Positions 4,084 through 58,364 of a stretch of 64,000 bases of DNA are shown here, piece after piece. Each line of letters starts with the position of its first letter. The stretch's first letter is position 1. The stretch spans positions 12,748,350-12,812,349 of the forward strand of contig OX387611.1 in assembly GCA_947568835.1 (NCBI GenBank), written 5' to 3'. The DNA comes from Protonemura montana. Lineage: Eukaryota; Arthropoda; Insecta; Plecoptera; Nemouridae. The notes under the pieces were generated by a model. That model did not search any database and was not told the DNA's origin. It saw only the letters and a list, made by a program, of their open reading frames with translations. The translations under genes were made by a program, and so were the position numbers.

Positions 4084-13609
<9,526 letters not shown>

Positions 13610-23116: not shown

Positions 23117-24022
23117 TAGATTTGCTATGGTAACCAATAGCTGTCAAAACACCCAATTGTAAATATAGCTGGCATTATTTTCAATGAGAATCCCAGCTCT
23201 GTTTGAGATTCAGAATAATTTAGTAAATATGACAGCTTGCACTGTTGGCTTTCATCTGTTAAGCATAAAGAAAGCTGAGGTTTGTGAACCCAGTAAACTC
23301 CTAGAGGCTGTATTAGTAATTCTGTTGTTCTGATTCTAGGAAACATCTGCATCATGTGCAATGACTCTTCAATTGACTTCAACGAATTCAAGCAAGCTTT
23401 TGAGAAAGTAGGAGAAGCCACCGAGACTGCTTTGATTGTTCTCGCTGAGAAGATGAACCCCTTCTCGTTGCCCAAGACCGGACTTGACCGACGTTCCGCC
23501 GCCATCGTAGTCCGTCAAGAGATTGAAACAAAGTGGAAGAAGGAATTCACTCTGGAATTCTCTCGAGATCGCAAGTCCATGTCCTCGTACTGCGTACCAT
23601 TGAAGGCTTCTCGTCTGGGAACTGGACCCAAGCTGTTTGTCAAGGGAGCACCGGAAGGTGTACTTGAACGTTGCACACATGCCCGAGTTGGTACACAGAA
23701 AGTGCCGCTGACGCCCACGTTGAAGAAACGCATCCTGGAGCTCACTGCCACCTACGGTTGCGGAAGAAATACTCTCCGTTGTCTTGCCCTGGCTGTCGCT
23801 GATACCCCAATGAAACTGGAGGACATGAACCTGACAGACTCGACCAAGTTCTACACTTATGAAGTCAACCTTACCTTCGTTGGAGTCGTTGGAATGTTGG
23901 ATCCTCCTCGCAAGGAAGTCTTCGACGCCATTGTACGATGCAGGGCCGCTGGAATCCGAGTCATTGTCATCACTGGAGATAACAAGGCTACAGCTGAAGC
24001 CATCTGCCGCAGGCACGTATAA

Positions 24023-43990: not shown

Positions 43991-44123
43991 TTTAGTCCTA
44001 GAATATATCATGGATAATAAAGCATGTCAGGTCATAATAGATCATTCATCAATCAGAGAGACCAGGTTGTTGTACTTTATGTACTTTACTTTACTGAAAA
44101 CCTCATCTTTATGGGACTTTTAA

Positions 44124-44289
44124 AGGACCACCTTCAATTGACATTTAAAAATTACTGTATGTGAGGAACATCAATTAATTAAGGATCCCGTAAAAAAGAA
44201 AAATCTAAAGAAATGCGGTGCACATTTCTCGCACTTTTTCTTTTTGGCGCGAAGCTCCGTGCGTGACGTCAGAGATAGGGAGTCTGCAG
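44124..44289 (+). repeat. Kolobok left terminal inverted repeat with E2F-like and CRE-like motifs
   Basis: Contains TTTTTGGCGCGAAGCTCC (E2F consensus TTTSSCGC) near 44241 and TGACGTCA at 44264-44271. Both motifs are kept in the right repeat. It precedes the start of the plus-strand gene by about 90 bp and probably serves as its promoter. Confidence 0.85.
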
Positions 44290-44381
44290 CGGCAGTCTGC
44301 AAGACTGTAAGACGCGCGCTGCAGAGTCGGTAGGGTCGGCGCGCTCGCGATAGTGTCGCATTGTTTCATTGAAGTGTGGCA

Positions 44382-44924
44382 ATGGCTGGACCTTTCAGTT
44401 TAGACCCGAAGTTTACTCAGAGCGAGATTGAAGAAAATATTTGCAAAAAAGCCGATGAAAGGAGACTACAAGAATCCTTTGTAGGGCGAGCAGGAAACAC
44501 CTCGTGGTGTACGTGTGGTAACTGCGTTGCAATGGACAGCGACGTAGAATCGCATTGCTGTAAAGAGCCACCACAAATACGAGCGTTGTGCCAGAATGAC
44601 GAGTGCATTACCGAGCACGGGTCATTCGACGTTATCACGAAAAGCATTGATGTGCTCAACATTACCAGGCATAAACTGATTATGCACACAGCATCCAAAG
44701 ACACTAAAGACAAAATGCGCTGTCCCTCAAATAAAGTTTGGCGCCATTTGGCTTATAAATCATTTGTTTCCTGGGTCAATTCGTGGGCTGCATTAGGGAA
44801 AAATAGGCGTGTTGTTATTCCGTCCTGCGTCGTGAATTCCATTCGCAATACGTTCCCAGAAGACGATGGAATTTACGTCGGATTCAACGCTGCAGCCGGC
44901 GAGGAGCCAGAGTATTTCCTATAA
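44382..44924 (+). CDS. transposon-borne P2X7 intracellular (ballast) domain-like protein, 180 aa
   Basis: A single-exon frame from an ATG at 44382 to TAA. After a 40-residue charged leader it has W42-C43-T-C45-G-N-C48, C59-C60, C70, C75 with H79, C114, then LAYKSFVSWVNSW, PSC149, and IRNTFPEDDGIYVGF. This order and spacing match the zinc-binding cytoplasmic ballast domain of P2X7 receptors (family P2RX7_C), without any channel part. It lies inside a Kolobok element, tail-to-tail with the transposase (107-bp gap), and starts just inside the left terminal repeat. Its job in the element is unknown; a DNA- or RNA-binding accessory factor or a regulator of transposition are guesses. No defects are seen. 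Confidence 0.87.
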   Translation: MAGPFSLDPKFTQSEIEENICKKADERRLQESFVGRAGNTSWCTCGNCVAMDSDVESHCCKEPPQIRALCQNDECITEHGSFDVITKSIDVLNITRHKLIMHTASKDTKDKMRCPSNKVWRHLAYKSFVSWVNSWAALGKNRRVVIPSCVVNSIRNTFPEDDGIYVGFNAAAGEEPEYFL

Positions 44925-45031
44925 GTAAGTGCGAAAAACAACAATTTTGGCAGTCACCACGTTTGTTGTGACACGTGTAGATATGAATTTTGTGTTCAAG
45001 ATTACCTTCGGATTCGCCGCATTTTTCTTTG

Positions 45032-47218
45032 TTACACCTCCTCGAATCGAGAGTATCGCGTTTGCTGCCTCACTTCTTCAATTGTTGGCTTCGGAACGGG
45101 GGCAATGTTTGCAGGAATAGGGAGGCTGGCATCAGTTGGAGCGTCGTACTTTTCAAGAAGCATTATTTTATGTATTAGAATGTCCCTCCAGTGAGTGGTT
45201 TTCTTTTCGTAGGTCTTTTTTAAAATCCATTGACGCTGTCCTTTGGAATAGGCCAACGTTTCGTTCACGCAAACCCTACCAATATTGGCATTGTGGTCTA
45301 GGACTGCGAGTATTCCGCGAGTAACCATTCCATCATACGGGAAGTGAAGGCGTTTTGGCAGGTATTTTATGCGCTCATTGTGATAGGATTCTAGATTTCC
45401 TGTAAACGTGTAGGAATTGCTGTTATCGTTTGACGAACCAATTACGTCGTATTTTAATGTATTTGTTTATTTTATTGTTGAATTTAGAAGTGTTATTTTG
45501 TAAATAACGGTCTTACCTGTGTGACAGTAATTGCTTGTATGCCGCAAATCTTTCAGGAAAACCGGGTTGTTGATAATTTGGTTGAGCTTTACGTGGTCAG
45601 GTGAATTTCGCTTTATCCACTTGGTCTCAGCGATTTCCTGGGCTGTAAGTTCCGCGTGCTCACAGCCATGGAACAGCTTATTTCCTGACCACGTGTGTTT
45701 ATTTGTCATGTGATTTAGCGAACTTGTGAACTTTTCAAGTAGCAACTCATCATTGCCTCCGCAGGTCTGGGAAGACCACCACAAATGGTTTTGAATGCTT
45801 GGCTGCCAGAGGGAGATTAGTGGCGAAGAGTTAGCAAGGCGTTTTCGGAGACTTTTCGCCATGTGCCAAACGTCAAACTCATGTCGTATGCTTGGGTGGT
45901 CTGTTCGCATCAAAAGACCAATCCCTCTGTGTCTGTCAGTTATAAATAACTTGATATTTATGACACTAGTAAGCTCCTTCAAGAGTGCAGCACAAGCAGC
46001 CTTCTCCAAATCTCCAGCTGTTTGTTTGCGCTGCATGACTTTGAAGTCTATGATTCGATTCGTTCTTACATCCATTATAGAGTAAGTAACAAACTTGCCA
46101 CAGTAACCTGGAGAGTCATACTGACCATCACCGGACAGCCAAATGTCTTCGCCTGTCAAACCCAAGTTAAATAGTTCTATTTCTCGTTGAGACGCCCATG
46201 AGTTGACGATAGCCGGTTTCACATATGAATTGACAAGTCTACAATATGTGGATGACGACATGAAATGTAATTTTAGTGCGGAAGCAAAGGATTTAAATGC
46301 CGTAAAACTAAGTCCGCACGTGTACACAGCAGCCACAATGTTTATTGCGCCTAGTGCAGTGTTTCGTCTTTTAGACTGGGACAGCCAAGTGAAACTGTGT
46401 CCATCGCAACAAACTGTTTTCACTGTTAGCAAAGAACCACGGCATGTTTTAAATACTTCGCTAACTGAACCTCCGCAAATCTGGCATACTGCAAATAGCA
46501 ACGAAAGGCTATTCCAAAACACGAGAAAAACATTGTTTTCACTCGAATCAGACGTCTCGTCGTCTGTCTCCGAAGCCCCAGAGTCGCTATCATCATCCTC
46601 ACTATTTAGTTTGAAAGATTCGTCTAAGTTTTGCAATTCACTCTCACTAGTATCCGTTTCACTAGAACTCTCTTCATTTTCTAAACAAACTCGACGCAAA
46701 GTTTCAATGCCTAACTCGCATTGAGTGCTTATTTCACGCGAAAATGGATCGCCCGGCGCTTGGCTTGTGATAGCGATGGGTTTCACTCGCGGATTCGGGT
46801 GCGATTTGCTCGTTGACGGCTCGTTCAAATAATCTGGCACATGGTCCAATAACTCCTCTTTCTCCTTATTGATCAAAAACATGGACTTCTGACGCTTTTT
46901 CGGTGGAGGACAAACATTCGAATGTGATTTACCAGTCATGAGCAACGACGGGACTGCCGTTTTCTTCAAAATGGGTCTGGATTTCACTGCATCGCCCATC
47001 AATTGCAGTTTTAGTTTGTTGCGAATTTCAAAATCATCTTCTTGAAAATGTGCGGAACAAACACACGAGGATTTTCTTGGGACAAAATCTGTCCGATTAA
47101 CTTTATGCAACCATTGCCGATACATCCCAGGAAACTTATTCTTATCTGGAAATTTGTGGAAAGAAAATGGGCCTTTCGTGTTCGAACACTGATACACAAC
47201 ACAATGATTGTTCACCAT
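45032..47218 (-). CDS. Kolobok transposase, THAP domain plus DDE core, two exons, 689 aa
   Basis: Exon 1 is 47218-45517 and exon 2 is 45399-45032. The donor reads CACACAG/GTAAGA and the acceptor TTTACAG/GAAATC; the join restores CHTGNLESYHNERIKYLP in frame. The N terminus is a THAP zinc finger (C6, C11, W36, C54, H57), used to bind the element's ends. Residues 170-230 are acidic and Ser-rich. The catalytic core shows SGDGQYDSPG (D364), ITDRHRGIG (D428), HEFDVWH (449-452) and a C519-E520-H521 motif as candidate third acid. The C terminus has MVTRGILAVLDHNAN, typical of this family. No internal stop. The gene starts 166 bp inside the right terminal repeat. The intron (117 nt) must be spliced for a full product, which could limit activity to certain tissues, as in P elements. 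Confidence 0.88.
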
Positions 47219-47383
47219 TATTCTGCAGTTGGTTCACTTATAAAGTAGCAATCGTTAGACATAGCACACATAGACAAATATACGAGACAAATATAGTAAC
47301 GAGAAAAAACAATCCTACTCGCAAAGAGGTATCGCACGAACTAACTGGCAGCAGCCGCGGCAACCGGGCAGCGCTTGCTAGCC

Positions 47384-47550
47384 CTGCAGACTACCTATCT
47401 CTGACGTCACTAGCGGAGCTTCGCGCCAAAAAGAAAAAGCGCGAGAAAATATGCACCACATTTTTTAAGATTTTTCTTTTTTACGGGATCCTTAATTAAT
47501 TGATGTTCCTCACATACAGTAATTTTTAAATTTCAATTGAAGGTGTTCCT
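47384..47550 (-). repeat. Kolobok right terminal inverted repeat
   Basis: Complement of the left repeat, with TGACGTCA at 47402-47409 and the E2F-like GGAGCTTCGCGCCAAAAAG at about 47415-47433. It lies upstream of the transposase start (47218). Confidence 0.85.
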
Positions 47551-47620
47551 TTAACAAGCTGCCAGGCAACGCGTTTAGAAAAACAGCACACTGCTAACCA
47601 AATTTTTTCACCGTTTTTAG

Positions 47621-47868
47621 TTGGGCTGAATGACGACAGCGACCTTGTCTACTTCAGAGGAGGGCTTGTGAGAAAACCTTTCAAGTGCGTGAAATGTCCG
47701 ACGAGGTTCAAGAATAAATCAAGCCTGAGCAGGCATCTGGATCTTCAGTGCGGAAAATAGTCACAGTTTCGCTGTCGCCATTGTTCCCATCGCAGCAAGT
47801 TGACTCTGCTCAAACACAGCAAACGGGTGCACAGTGATAAGGCAGACCAAACTCCAATGAGCGAATAG
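47621..47868 (+). pseudogene. lola-like C2H2 zinc-finger terminal exon with in-frame TAG
   Basis: After an acceptor CCGTTTTTAG (47611-47620) a frame reads FRGGLVRKPFKCVKC, with a first C2H2-like finger (C..C, then H and the C of LQCGK), then TAG at 47758-47760, then SQFRCRHCSHRSKLTLLKH ... VHSD and TAG at 47866-47868. The CVKC/SLSRHL/CGK followed by FRCRHC/LLKH.K.VH layout is that of the paired fingers in alternative terminal exons of arthropod lola genes. The family usually has a sense codon where TAG stands, so the second finger would be lost. Either this alternative exon is dead, or a one-base error (for example GAG to TAG) is present. It abuts the transposon, 71 bp from its border. Confidence 0.6.
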
Positions 47869-51690: not shown

Positions 51691-52109
51691 TAGTGCATAC
51701 GACAGACGCTCGTAAATTCGCAATTTTCTGCAGAACTTGCTGCATGGCTTGCATTTACTCTTGCTGACAGACATCTTGATGATTTTAGCTACCGATGGCC
51801 GTGTCTGATGCTGACCAGAGCCAATTGTCGCAAGTTTTGACATAAGACTAGAGCTTCAAGAGAATAAAACATGGCAAATTGGACGCCGATGCAAGAAGCG
51901 AGCCCGAAAGAACAGTTGTCGATACATCACTAGCGAGTAACAAAAATAAAGTAAATAGATAAGAGGAAGAACCCAGCCCTGATTAATATGCAAAAGAAAA
52001 CAGGCAAGAAGAAGCTCGAGATATTGGATTGAGTTGTCACCTCCATGACGGCGTTGCTGCAGAGGTGTTATGTACCCTGCAGGGACGGGCACACCACGCT
52101 GAGTACCAG
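51691..52109. other. spacer before the satellite
   Basis: Unique sequence of 419 bp with no recognised feature. Its last part (CCCTGCAGGGACGGGCACACC) is mildly GC-rich. The apparent minus-strand proteins entering from the satellite end here. Confidence 0.5.
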
Positions 52110-55100
52110 CTCCCTCGAATGAATTTGCCAACGACGGCTCCCTCGAATGAATTTGCCAACGACGGCTCCCTCGAATGAATTTGCCAACGACGGCTCCCTC
52201 GAATGAATTTGCCAACGACGGCGCCCTCGAAAGAATTTGCCAACGACGGCTCCCTCGAATGAATTTGCCAACGACGGCGCCCTCGAAAGAATTTGCCAAC
52301 GACGGCTCCCTCGAATGAATTTGCCAACGACGGCTCCCTCGAATGAATTTGCCAACGACGGCTCCCTCGAATGAATTTGCCAACGACGGCGTCCTCGAAA
52401 GAATTTGCCAACGACGGCGCACTCGAATGAATTTGCCAACGACGGCGTCCTCGAATGAATTTGCCAACGACGGCTCCCTCGAATGAATTTGCCAACGACG
52501 GCGTCCTCGAATGAATTTGCCAACGACGGCGCCCTCGAATGAATTTGCCAACGACGGCGTCCTCGAATGAATTTGCCAACGACGGCGCCCTCGAATGAAT
52601 TTGCCAACGACGGCTCCCTCGAATGAATTTGCCAACGACGGCTCCCTCGAATGAATTTGCCAACGACGGCGTCCTCGAATGAATTTGCCAACGACGGCGT
52701 CCTCGAATGAATTTGCCAACGACGGCTCCCTCGAATGAATTTGCCAACGACGGCTCCCTCGAATGAATTTGCCAACGACGGCTCCCTCGAATGAATTTGC
52801 CAACGACGGCTCCCTCGAATGAATTTGCCAACGACGGCTCCCTCGAATGAATTTGCCAACGACGGCGCCCTCGAATGAATTTGCCAACGACGGCGTCCTC
52901 GAATGAATTTGCCAACGACGGCTCCCTCGAATGAATTTGCCAACGACGGCTCCCTCGAATGAATTTGCCAACGACGGCTCCCTCGAATGAATTTGCCAAC
53001 GACGGCTCCCTCGAATGAATTTGCCAACGACGGCTCCCTCGAATGAATTTGCCAACGACGGCGCCCTCGAAAGAATTTGCCAACGACGGCTCCCTCGAAT
53101 GAATTTGCCAACGACGGCGCCCTCGAAAGAATTTGCCAACGACGGCTCCCTCGAATGAATTTGCCAACGACGGCTCCCTCGAATGAATTTGCCAACGACG
53201 GCTCCCTCGAATGAATTTGCCAACGACGGCGTCCTCGAAAGAATTTGCCAACGACGGCGCACTCGAATGAATTTGCCAACGACGGCGTCCTCGAATGAAT
53301 TTGCCAACGACGGCTCCCTCGAATGAATTTGCCAACGACGGCGTCCTCGAATGAATTTGCCAACGACGGCGTCCTCGAATGAATTTGCCAACGACGGCTC
53401 CCTCGAATGAATTTGCCAACGACGGCTCCCTCGAATGAATTTGCCAACGACGGCTCCCTCGAATGAATTTGCCAACGACGGCTCCCTCGAATGAATTTGC
53501 CAACGACGGCTCCCTCGAATGAATTTGCCAACGACGGCGCCCTCGAATGAATTTGCCAACGACGGCGTCCTCGAATGAATTTGCCAACGACGGCTCCCTC
53601 GAATGAATTTGCCAACGGCGGCTCCCTCGAATGAATTTGCCAACGACGGCTCCCTCGAATGAATTTGCCAACGACGGCTCCCTCGAATGAATTTGCCAAC
53701 GACGGCTCCCTCGAATGAATTTGCCAACGACGGCGCCCTCGAAAGAATTTGCCAACGACGGCTCCCTCGAATGAATTTGCCAACGACGGCGCCCTCGAAA
53801 GAATTTGCCAACGACGGCTCCCTCGAATGAATTTGCCAACGACGGCTCCCTCGAATGAATTTGCCAACGACGGCTCCCTCGAATGAATTTGCCAACGACG
53901 GCGTCCTCGAAAGAATTTGCCAACGACGGCGCACTCGAATGAATTTGCCAACGACGGCGTCCTCGAATGAATTTGCCAACGACGGCTCCCTCGAATGAAT
54001 TTGCCAACGACGGCGCCCTCGAATGAATTTGCCAACGACGGCGTCCTCGAATGAATTTGCCAACGACGGCGTCCTCGAATGAATTTGCCAACGACGGCTC
54101 CCTCGAATGAATTTGCCAACGACGGCGTCCTCGAATGAATTTGCCAACGACGGCGCCCTCGAATGAATTTGCCAACGACGGCGTCCTCGAATGAATTTGC
54201 CAACGACGGCTCCCTCGAATGAATTTGCCAACGACGGCGTCCTCGAATGAATTTGCCAACGACGGCGTCCTCGAATGAATTTGCCAACGACGGCTCCCTC
54301 GAATGAATTTGCCAACGACGGCGTCCTCGAATGAATTTGCCAACGACGGCGCCCTCGAATGAATTTGCCAACGACGGCGTCCTCGAATGAATTTGCCAAC
54401 GACGGCGCCCTCGAATGAATTTGCCAACGACGGCTCCCTCGAATGAATTTGCCAACGACGGCGCCCTCGAATGAATTTGCCAACGACGGCGCCCTCGAAT
54501 AAATTTGCCAACGACGGCTCCCTCGAATGAATTTGCCAACGACGGCTCCCTCGAATGAATTTGCCAACGACGGCTCCCTCGAATGAATTTGCCAACGACG
54601 GCTCCCTCGAATGAATTTGCCAACGACGGCTCCCTCGAATGAATTTGCCAACGACGGCTCCCTCGAATGAATTTGCCAACGACGGCTCCCTCGAATGAAT
54701 TTGCCAACGACGGCTCCCTCGAATGAATTTGCCAACGACGGCTCCCTCGAATGAATTTGCCAACGACGGCTCCCTCGAATGAATTTGCCAACGACGGCGC
54801 CCTCGAATGAATTTGCCAACGACGGCGCCCTCGAATGAATTTGCCAACGACGGCTCCCTCGAATGAATTTGCCAACGACGGCTCCCTCGAATGAATTTGC
54901 CAACGACGGCGTCCTCGAATGAATTTGCCAACGACGGCGTCCTCGAATGAATTTGCCAACGACGGCTCCCTCGAATGAATTTGCCAACGACGGCTCCCTC
55001 GAATGAATTTGCCAACGACGGCTCCCTCGAATGAATTTGCCAACGACGGCTCCCTCGAATGAATTTGCCAACGACGGCTCCCTCGAATGAATTTGCCAAC

Positions 55101-58100
55101 GACGGCTCCCTCGAATGAATTTGCCAACGACGGCTCCCTCGAATGAATTTGCCAACGACGGCTCCCTCGAATGAATTTGCCAACGACGGCTCCCTCGAAT
55201 GAATTTGCCAACGACGGCTCCCTCGAATGAATTTGCCAACGACGGCTCCCTCGAATGAATTTGCCAACGACGGCTCCCTCGAATGAATTTGCCAACGACG
55301 GCTCCCTCGAATGAATTTGCCAACGACGGCTCCCTCGAATGAATTTGCCAACGACGGCTCCCTCGAATGAATTTGCCAACGACGGCTCCCTCGAATGAAT
55401 TTGCCAACGACGGCGCCCTCGAATGAATTTGCCAACGACGGCGCCCTCGAATGAATTTGCCAACGACGGCTCCCTCGAATGAATTTGCCAACGACGGCGC
55501 CCTCGAATGAATTTGCCAACGACGGCGTCCTCGAATGAATTTGCCAACGACGGCTCCCTCGAATGAATTTGCCAACGACGGCGTCCGCGAATGAATTTGC
55601 CAACGACGGCGCCCTCGAATGAATTTGCCAACGACGGCTCCCTCGAATGAATTTGCCAACGACGGCGCCCTCGAATGAATTTGCCAAAGACGGCGCCCTC
55701 GAATGAATTTGCCAACGACGGCGTCCTCGAATGAATTTGCCAACGACGGCTCCCTCGAATGAATTTGCCAACGACGGCGTCCTCGAATGAATTTGCCAAC
55801 GACGGCGCCCTCGAATGAATTTGCCAAAGACGGCTCCCTCGAATGAATTTGCCAACGACGGCTCCCTCGAATGAATTTGCCAACGACGGCTCCCTCGAAT
55901 GAATTTGCCAACGACGGCGCCCTCGAATGAATTTGCCAACGACGGCTCCCTCGAATGAATTTGCCAACGACGGCGCCCTCGAATGAATTTGCCAACGACG
56001 GCGCCCTCGAATGAATTTGCCAACGACGGCTCCCTCGAATGAATTTGCCAACGACGGCGCCCTCGAATGAATTTGCCAACGACGGCTCCCTCGAATGAAT
56101 TTGCCAAAGACGGCGCCCTCGAATGAATTTGCCAACGACGGCTCCCTCGAATGAATTTGCCAACGACGGCTCCCTCGAATGAATTTGCCAACGACGGCTC
56201 CCTCGAATGAATTTGCCAACGACGGCTCCCTCGAATGAATTTGCCAAAGACGGCGCCCTCGAATGAATTTGCCAACGACGGCTCCCTCGAATGAATTTGC
56301 CAAAGACGGCGCCCTCGAATGAATTTGCCAACGACGGCTCCCTCGAATGAATTTGCCAACGACGGCTCCCTCGAATGAATTTGCCAACGACGGCGCCCTC
56401 GAATGAATTTGCCAACGACGGCGTCCTCGAATGAATTTGCCAACGACGGCTCCCTCGAATGAATTTGCCAACGACGGCGCCCTCGAATGAATTTGCCAAC
56501 GACGGCGTCCTCGAATGAATTTGCCAACGACGGCTCCCTCGAATGAATTTGCCAACGACGGCGTCCTCGAATGAATTTGCCAACGACGGCGTCCTCGAAT
56601 GAATTTGCCAACGACGGCTCCCTCGAATGAATTTGCCAACGACGGCGTCCTCGAATGAATTTGCCAACGACGGCGTCCTCGAATGAATTTGCCAACGACG
56701 GCTCCCTCGAATGAATTTGCCAACGACGGCGTCCTCGAATGAATTTGCCAACGACGGCTCCCTCGAATGAATTTGCCAACGACGGCTCCCTCGAATGAAT
56801 TTGCCAACGACGGCTCCCTCGAATGAATTTGCCAACGACGGCTCCCTCGAATGAATTTGCCAACGACGGCGTCCTCGAATGAATTTGCCAACGACGGCTC
56901 CCTCGAATGAATTTGCCAACGACGGCTCCCTCGAATGAATTTGCCAACGACGGCTCCCTCGAATGAATTTGCCAACGACGGCTCCCTCGAATGAATTTGC
57001 CAACGACGGCTCCCTCGAATGAATTTGCCAACGACGGCGTCCTCGAATGAATTTGCCAACGACGGCTCCCTCGAATGAATTTGCCAACGACGGCGTCCTC
57101 GAATGAATTTGCCAACGACGGCTCCCTCGAATGAATTTGCCAACGACGGCTCCCTCGAATGAATTTGCCAACGACGGCTCCCTCGAATGAATTTGCCAAC
57201 GACGGCTCCCTCGAATGAATTTGCCAACGACGGCGTCCTCGAATGAATTTGCCAACGACGGCTCCCTCGAATGAATTTGCCAACGACGGCTCCCTCGAAT
57301 GAATTTGCCAACGACGGCTCCCTCGAATGAATTTGCCAACGACGGCTCCCTCGAATGAATTTGCCAACGACGGCGCCCTCGAATGAATTTGCCAACGACG
57401 GCTCCCTCGAATGAATTTGCCAACGACGGCTCCCTCGAATGAATTTGCCAACGACGGCGTCCTCGAATGAATTTGCCAACGACGGCTCCCTCGAATGAAT
57501 TTGCCAACGACGGCTCCCTCGAATGAATTTGCCAACGACGGCTCCCTCGAATGAATTTGCCAACGACGGCTCCCTCGAATGAATTTGCCAACGACGGCTC
57601 CCTCGAATGAATTTGCCAACGACGGCGTCCTCGAATGAATTTGCCAACGACGGCTCCCTCGAATGAATTTGCCAACGACGGCTCCCTCGAATGAATTTGC
57701 CAACGACGGCTCCCTCGAATGAATTTGCCAACGACGGCTCCCTCGAATGAATTTGCCAACGACGGCTCCCTCGAATGAATTTGCCAACGACGGCGTCCTC
57801 GAATGAATTTGCCAACGACGGCTCCCTCGAATGAATTTGCCAACGACGGCGTCCTCGAATGAATTTGCCAACGACGGCTCCCTCGAATGAATTTGCCAAC
57901 GACGGCTCCCTCGAATGAATTTGCCAACGACGGCTCCCTCGAATGAATTTGCCAACGACGGCTCCCTCGAATGAATTTGCCAACGACGGCGTCCTCGAAT
58001 GAATTTGCCAACGACGGCTCCCTCGAATGAATTTGCCAACGACGGCTCCCTCGAATGAATTTGCCAACGACGGCTCCCTCGAATGAATTTGCCAACGACG

Positions 58101-58364
58101 GCTCCCTCGAATGAATTTGCCAACGACGGCGCCCTCGAATGAATTTGCCAACGACGGCTCCCTCGAATGAATTTGCCAACGACGGCTCCCTCGAATGAAT
58201 TTGCCAACGACGGCGTCCTCGAATGAATTTGCCAACGACGGCTCCCTCGAATGAATTTGCCAACGACGGCTCCCTCGAATGAATTTGCCAACGACGGCTC
58301 ACTCGAATGAATTTGCCAACGACGGCTCCCTCGAATGAATTTGCCAACGACGGCTCCCTCGAAA
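52110..58364. repeat. 28-bp satellite, about 223 copies, with higher-order structure
   Basis: The unit reads CTCCCTCGAATGAATTTGCC followed by AACGACGG. Variation is concentrated in four positions: GGCTCC, GGCGCC, GGCGTC or rarely GGCGCA/GGCTCA before CTCGAA, and TGA or AGA after it; CAAAGACGG replaces CAACGACGG in a few units around 55680-56310. The AAAGAATT variant appears in the same pattern at 52221, 53061 and 53733, showing blocks of 30 and 24 units copied as a whole. All three minus-strand frames lack stops over 6 kb, giving three apparent proteins of more than 2000 residues. The unit length is not a multiple of three, so each frame cycles through the same 28-residue repeat. This is not a gene. 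Confidence 0.97.

Follow-up and report, generated by a model that had tools for sequence, protein, structure and literature searches.

A Kolobok transposon, probably of the Kol0 type, with a P2X7 ballast-domain gene in Protonemura montana

We analysed a stretch of 64,000 nucleotides from Protonemura montana (assembly GCA_947568835.1, contig OX387611.1, positions 12,748,350 to 12,812,349; hereafter the window), which holds a 3,427 bp element at window positions 44124-47550 with two genes, one encoding a transposase and the other a short protein, KolX, that carries the ballast domain of the P2X7 receptor. This element is very probably a recently active, apparently autonomous cut-and-paste Kolobok transposon of the Kol0 type, for which KolX would act as a helper in trans. 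This reading rests on near-identical copies at different sites, TTAA flanks, long terminal inverted repeats (TIRs) and the two-gene set; the architecture of the element is confirmed as lying far above chance expectation.

Kojima and Bao (Mobile DNA 2022, PMC9587614) described KolX as a second protein encoded by the Kol0 lineage of Kolobok, with the cytoplasmic ballast fold and seven conserved cysteines, and traced P2X7 to a P2X4-like gene that became fused to KolX. The same paper suggested an origin by domestication of KolX for zebrafish nanor and reported a nuclease or a helicase as accessory protein in other Kolobok lineages. The link between Kolobok, the ballast domain and P2X7 is not new, having been in print since 2022. 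The original prediction for this DNA, that the ballast protein is a transposon accessory and that the P2X7 tail was captured from such an element, had thus already been published in both its parts, and the present data fit it. What we add is small: a partly retained GDP pocket, a conserved N-S-W-x3-G-x3-R stretch, and deletion derivatives that multiplied with or without KolX. The data do provide independent confirmation, from one genome, of what the published origin of the P2X7 tail requires, namely a ballast domain found repeatedly in the second gene of Kolobok transposons, and the near-identical complete copies provide material for testing the role of KolX in transposition.

Structure of the element

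TTAA stands immediately outside each end, and the TIRs, 166 and 167 bp long, are 92.8% identical to one another (inverted-repeat arms 44120-44227/47447-47554 at 94% and 44225-44289/47384-47448 at 92%). The left end starts with AGGACC and the termini, AGGA...TCCT, show the 5'-RR / YY-3' pattern that serves as a Kolobok criterion (PMC9587614). As first noticed, the two genes converge and each starts inward of a terminal repeat, KolX 258 bp in from the left end and the transposase 332 bp in from the right end, with 107 bp separating their stop codons. The features are the following.

44120..44123, no strand: left TTAA target site duplication
44124..44289, + strand: left TIR, first letters AGGACCACC
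44382..44924, + strand: KolX gene, 180-residue ballast-domain (P2RX7_C) protein
45032..45399, - strand: transposase exon 2, with the final catalytic residue E571 (CHTGNLE)
45400..45516, - strand: transposase intron, GT...AG, predicted from the sequence
45517..47218, - strand: transposase exon 1, with the THAP domain, D364, D428 and D449VWH452
47384..47550, - strand: right TIR, last letters TCCT
47551..47554, no strand: right TTAA target site duplication

The 583-residue open reading frame (ORF) in the mechanical ORF listing is exon 1 running on past a splice donor to a stop inside the intron. Putative splice sites, a GTAAGA donor and a TTTACAG acceptor (intron 45516-45400), would give a transposase of 689 residues ending at 45032. 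THAP, DDE and H2CH motifs are known features of Kolobok transposases (PMC6004289, in the part cited), and all are present: a THAP domain at residues 6-92 (Pfam E 3.8e-14), a DDE triad with the C/DxxH signature (D364, D428, D449VWH452, E571) and, between C/DxxH and E, an H2CH zinc finger (H503, H508, C519, H521). Triad and signature were read by motif and by eye, not from structure, and in this way also in the transposases of two other families described below, C and E, where the four H2CH residues were likewise seen by eye, with wider spacing in E. With TTAA on both sides, TIRs and a THAP transposase, the prediction of a structurally complete Kolobok element holds. Judged from the published description, the element is like Kol0 (type Kolobok-1_XT) in its TTAA target, its RR terminus, its DDE transposase with C/DxxH and its second gene with a ballast fold and seven cysteines.

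KolX and the P2X7 ballast domain

The 180-residue protein had been assigned to the P2X7 ballast type by its residue pattern, and the Pfam match to P2RX7_C (PF20478), which ends at residue 168, bears this out (E 5.2e-18, 66.1 bits against a curated cut-off of 23.5). All seven zinc-binding cysteines are present (C43, C45, C48, C59, C60, C75, C149), and the predicted structure of KolX, compared by VIA-align, has the P2X7 ballast fold, as described for the Kol0 second gene. In contrast to the P2X7 proteins that contain this domain (PDB 6u9v, 8trb, 9e3m and others), KolX is without the channel part. It resembles nanor and other ballast-only genes (PMC7016195, PMC9587614; both cited from parts of the text) in being a short protein with the ballast domain only; by their descriptions, those are animal genes outside transposons, whereas KolX lies inside one. 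The Pfam search gave no nuclease match in KolX, and scans of viral and of bacterial and archaeal contigs confirmed no relative.

The residues that bind GDP in rat P2X7 form a set taken from Rump et al. (R546, H547, R574, R578, K583), which is no condition of PF20478 membership. KolX retains R546, H547 and R578, and has V151 in place of R574 and E160 in place of K583; its putative GDP pocket is partly retained. R574 and K583 are missing from fish and amphibian P2X7 too (Rump et al. 2020, PMC7016195). Seven other residues (R96, W120, N133, S134, W135, G139, R143) are conserved across KolX; at these places the three P2X7 sequences of mammals in our alignment have other residues or gaps, and they lack the stretch N-S-W-x3-G-x3-R (N133-R143).

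The protein database yielded only 15 relatives, which makes for a thin tree. An unrooted tree of 16 rows, three of them mammalian P2X7, was built without P0003, P0006, P0012 and P0014, which are short fragments, and without P0002, which is full length with a divergent C-terminal part. KolX and P2X7 rows stand apart, the P2X7 branch being 2.4 long. The KolX proteins of the window family (A) and of families B and C each have a partner of their own among the database relatives (P0001, P0013 and P0007, respectively), so that several old KolX lineages coexist in one genome. Being unrooted, the tree is silent on the direction of transfer between KolX and P2X7.

In the part of their text cited here, Rump et al. 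(PMC7016195) found no ballast gene in beetles and mentioned a tick protein with a 'TAHP' domain ahead of the ballast domain. 'TAHP' perhaps stands for THAP, in which case the tick protein would fit a misannotated Kolobok element. Among our database relatives, protein P0014 of Ceutorhynchus assimilis, which we take to be a beetle, carries P2RX7_C.

Copies and deletion derivatives of family A

The left-end search gave at least 40 end matches (40 of 44 candidates scored) in at least 23 loci, so that the counts below are lower bounds. Both ends are found at 21 of the 23 loci and a single end at L023 and L031, and all 44 ends abut TTAA. Four copies are full length (L009, which is the window element, L010, L019 and L020) and have both genes; three of them have an uninterrupted transposase exon 1, and the exon 2 sequence does not differ among the four. 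L010, which has an extra 6 bp within the KolX frame, matches the window at 99.8% over the entire 3.84 kb compared, flanks included, and is therefore a segmental duplicate rather than an independent insertion; the four copies represent three independent insertions.

Internal deletions of 11 different forms account for 16 loci (L011-L018, L021, L022, L024-L029), and three loci are rearranged or one-ended (L023, left part only; L030, two right ends; L031, one right end). An intact transposase is found at none of these 19, and a complete KolX at one (L011). Set against the original refuting condition, that other copies lack the gene, all full-length copies have KolX (4/4). KolX is present over residues 1-180 at L011 and in every full-length copy, five loci in total, and is kept to residue 172 at five more. 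Breakpoints are shared by several derivatives (773/2649 in three, 772/2639 in two, 397/2527 in three), the last truncating KolX at residue 46. Multiplication has thus occurred both in derivatives that have KolX and in those that lack it, and KolX is dispensable in cis. Left breakpoints are spread from 199 to 842, and the first 138 to 272 transposase codons, THAP domain included, are kept at all 16 deletion loci whatever the state of KolX. The explanation would be either a cis requirement for about 740 bp of the right end or some benefit from the THAP fragment. At L030, two right ends face each other with TTAA at both sides and the left end missing, a copy rearranged end-to-end that has nevertheless apparently moved.

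Other Kolobok families in the genome

A KolX query found 51 genome matches, 19 in family A and 32 elsewhere, of which 17 (L032-L048) were examined. A transposase match lies beside KolX at 15 of the 17, covering 34 residues only at L044, with none at L043 and L045; wherever both genes occur they converge. The pairing on which the original prediction hinged thus recurs, in the four full-length copies and in the diverged families B, C, L047 and L048; of these, only C has the pair intact, the others showing decay or truncation. KolX in other families is 38-42% identical to that of the window and has the same convergent position.

Family C (L040) has an intact 723-residue THAP transposase and a 179-residue KolX inside TTAA-flanked TIRs. 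Family B occurs at ten places (L032-L039, L041, L042), and since the flanking bases are shared, it is a single insertion spread by duplication. Its TIRs are spaced 3.2 kb apart in five copies and wider in L033, L034, L036, L038 and L042; in the search alignments the transposase is interrupted by stops or gaps at most places, and the KolX match is stop-free in 7/10. None of the ten copies is farther than about 106 kb from the end of its contig (C1, C2, C4, C11-C16 and C28, the last only 65 kb long), so the insertion rides in a subtelomere-like duplicated block. The KolX of L047 is 53% identical to that of family B, and no TIR pair was found there. L046 and L048 were considered as a separate family, which their KolX identity to family C rules out (100% over residues 1-86 and 76% over residues 1-112, respectively); in L048 both genes are truncated, within TTAA-flanked TIRs.

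Family E (L049 and L050) has an intact THAP transposase of 733 codons, and its two copies, at sites with different flanks, are 99.97% identical over 3,630 bp; a third place gives the same search score. A candidate N-terminal remnant of KolX in this family was dropped, its best E of 0.05 comparing with 0.017 for a chance match on the opposite strand of the transposase gene.

Selection on KolX

Between families A, B and C, KolX has a pS of 0.82-0.86, which is saturated, and a pN of 0.44-0.46; the corresponding values for the transposase between families A, C and E are 0.80-0.85 and 0.42-0.44. No dN/dS figure is given because synonymous sites are saturated. Just over half of the amino-acid-changing sites have been held while silent sites were randomised, which means purifying selection on KolX for as long as the families have existed. 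As judged by these substitutions, KolX is constrained between families about as strongly as the transposase.

Role of KolX and origin of the P2X7 tail

By likeness to the superfamily, the transposase would bind the element ends via its THAP domain and move the element into TTAA. KolX would then be a soluble zinc protein aiding transposition in trans, most likely as a partner of the transposase-DNA complex or of the host repair that acts on the ends. The nuclease and helicase accessories of other Kolobok lineages hint, by analogy, that the second gene may serve end processing or repair. Supply of KolX and transposase in trans would also explain the spread of derivatives lacking KolX, the catalytic part, or both. 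Our literature search, with subscription journals mostly outside its coverage, found no report of a transposition test of KolX. Two points weigh against this overall reading. In L019, one of the full-length copies, transposase exon 1 is interrupted by a stop. Moreover, no KolX above chance was found in family E, which recently moved without a detectable one, so that KolX may be dispensable or merely regulatory.

A rival account takes KolX for a gene captured from the host, or for a passenger there by chance, that does nothing for the element: derivatives without KolX multiplied, three sharing the breakpoint 397/2527, and family E is near-identical at two sites without it. A passenger would however decay, whereas KolX has held its convergent position in families where the protein is 38-42% identical to that of the window, with an amino-acid constraint about equal to that of the transposase, and Kol0 families in print show this pairing too (PMC9587614). 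Recurrence and between-family constraint weigh strongly against this explanation, which we regard as highly improbable. The main rival is that KolX is a regulator, a repressor or titration factor, and that KolX-bearing derivatives brake the family. Truncated P-element products act as repressors. In favour, 5 of the 23 loci have lost the catalytic part of the transposase but keep KolX up to residue 172 and with it the full extent of the Pfam match, and the THAP domain is kept at 16 of the 16 internal-deletion loci. Yet derivatives without KolX amplified too, and a plain cis requirement could account for the retention of the right end; a regulatory role seems to us unlikely, though not negligibly so. 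A tentative extension of the helper reading, rather less likely than not, is that KolX is two-surfaced, with a zinc-bearing ballast core and a transposition surface (R96 and N133-S-W135-x3-G139-x3-R143) that was given up in the receptor tail. KolX might then be a trans cofactor shared between copies, and perhaps between families, which moves transposase-only and empty derivatives, while derivatives that retain KolX together with the THAP end would survive in the role of helper or brake.

As for the receptor, its tail would be a domesticated KolX, as taken from PMC9587614. The opposite direction, with the ballast domain first an animal gene that Kolobok later took up, and P2X7 and its kin nearer the source, is improbable in our view. 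It draws on ballast genes in most animal groups, reported by Rump et al. 2020 (PMC7016195) in a text where a word search of the part covered gave no occurrence of 'transpos' or 'Kolobok', and on the unrooted tree, whose long P2X7 branch leaves the direction unfixed; with three mammalian P2X7 rows, the tree carries no weight either way. On the other hand, the P2X-ballast architecture is restricted to vertebrates according to the cited part of Rump et al. (PMC7016195), and Kojima and Bao argued that P2X7 is the derivative (PMC9587614).

Surroundings in the window

Beside the right end, at 47620-47760, lies a C2H2 zinc-finger fragment (E 3.3e-5, just under the Pfam cut-off), and the element may have inserted in or near a zinc-finger gene. 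Farther off, two near-identical P-type cation ATPase ORFs (9491-10159, with Cation_ATPase at 3.4e-23, and 23354-24022) share a 78-bp tandem repeat that comes after each of them, and the pair looks like a duplicated piece of a gene that we take to encode a calcium pump. At 52109-58363 a 28-bp unit is repeated in tandem about 223 times; the one frame that this leaves open, for 2,116 codons, is likely a repeat artefact rather than a gene.
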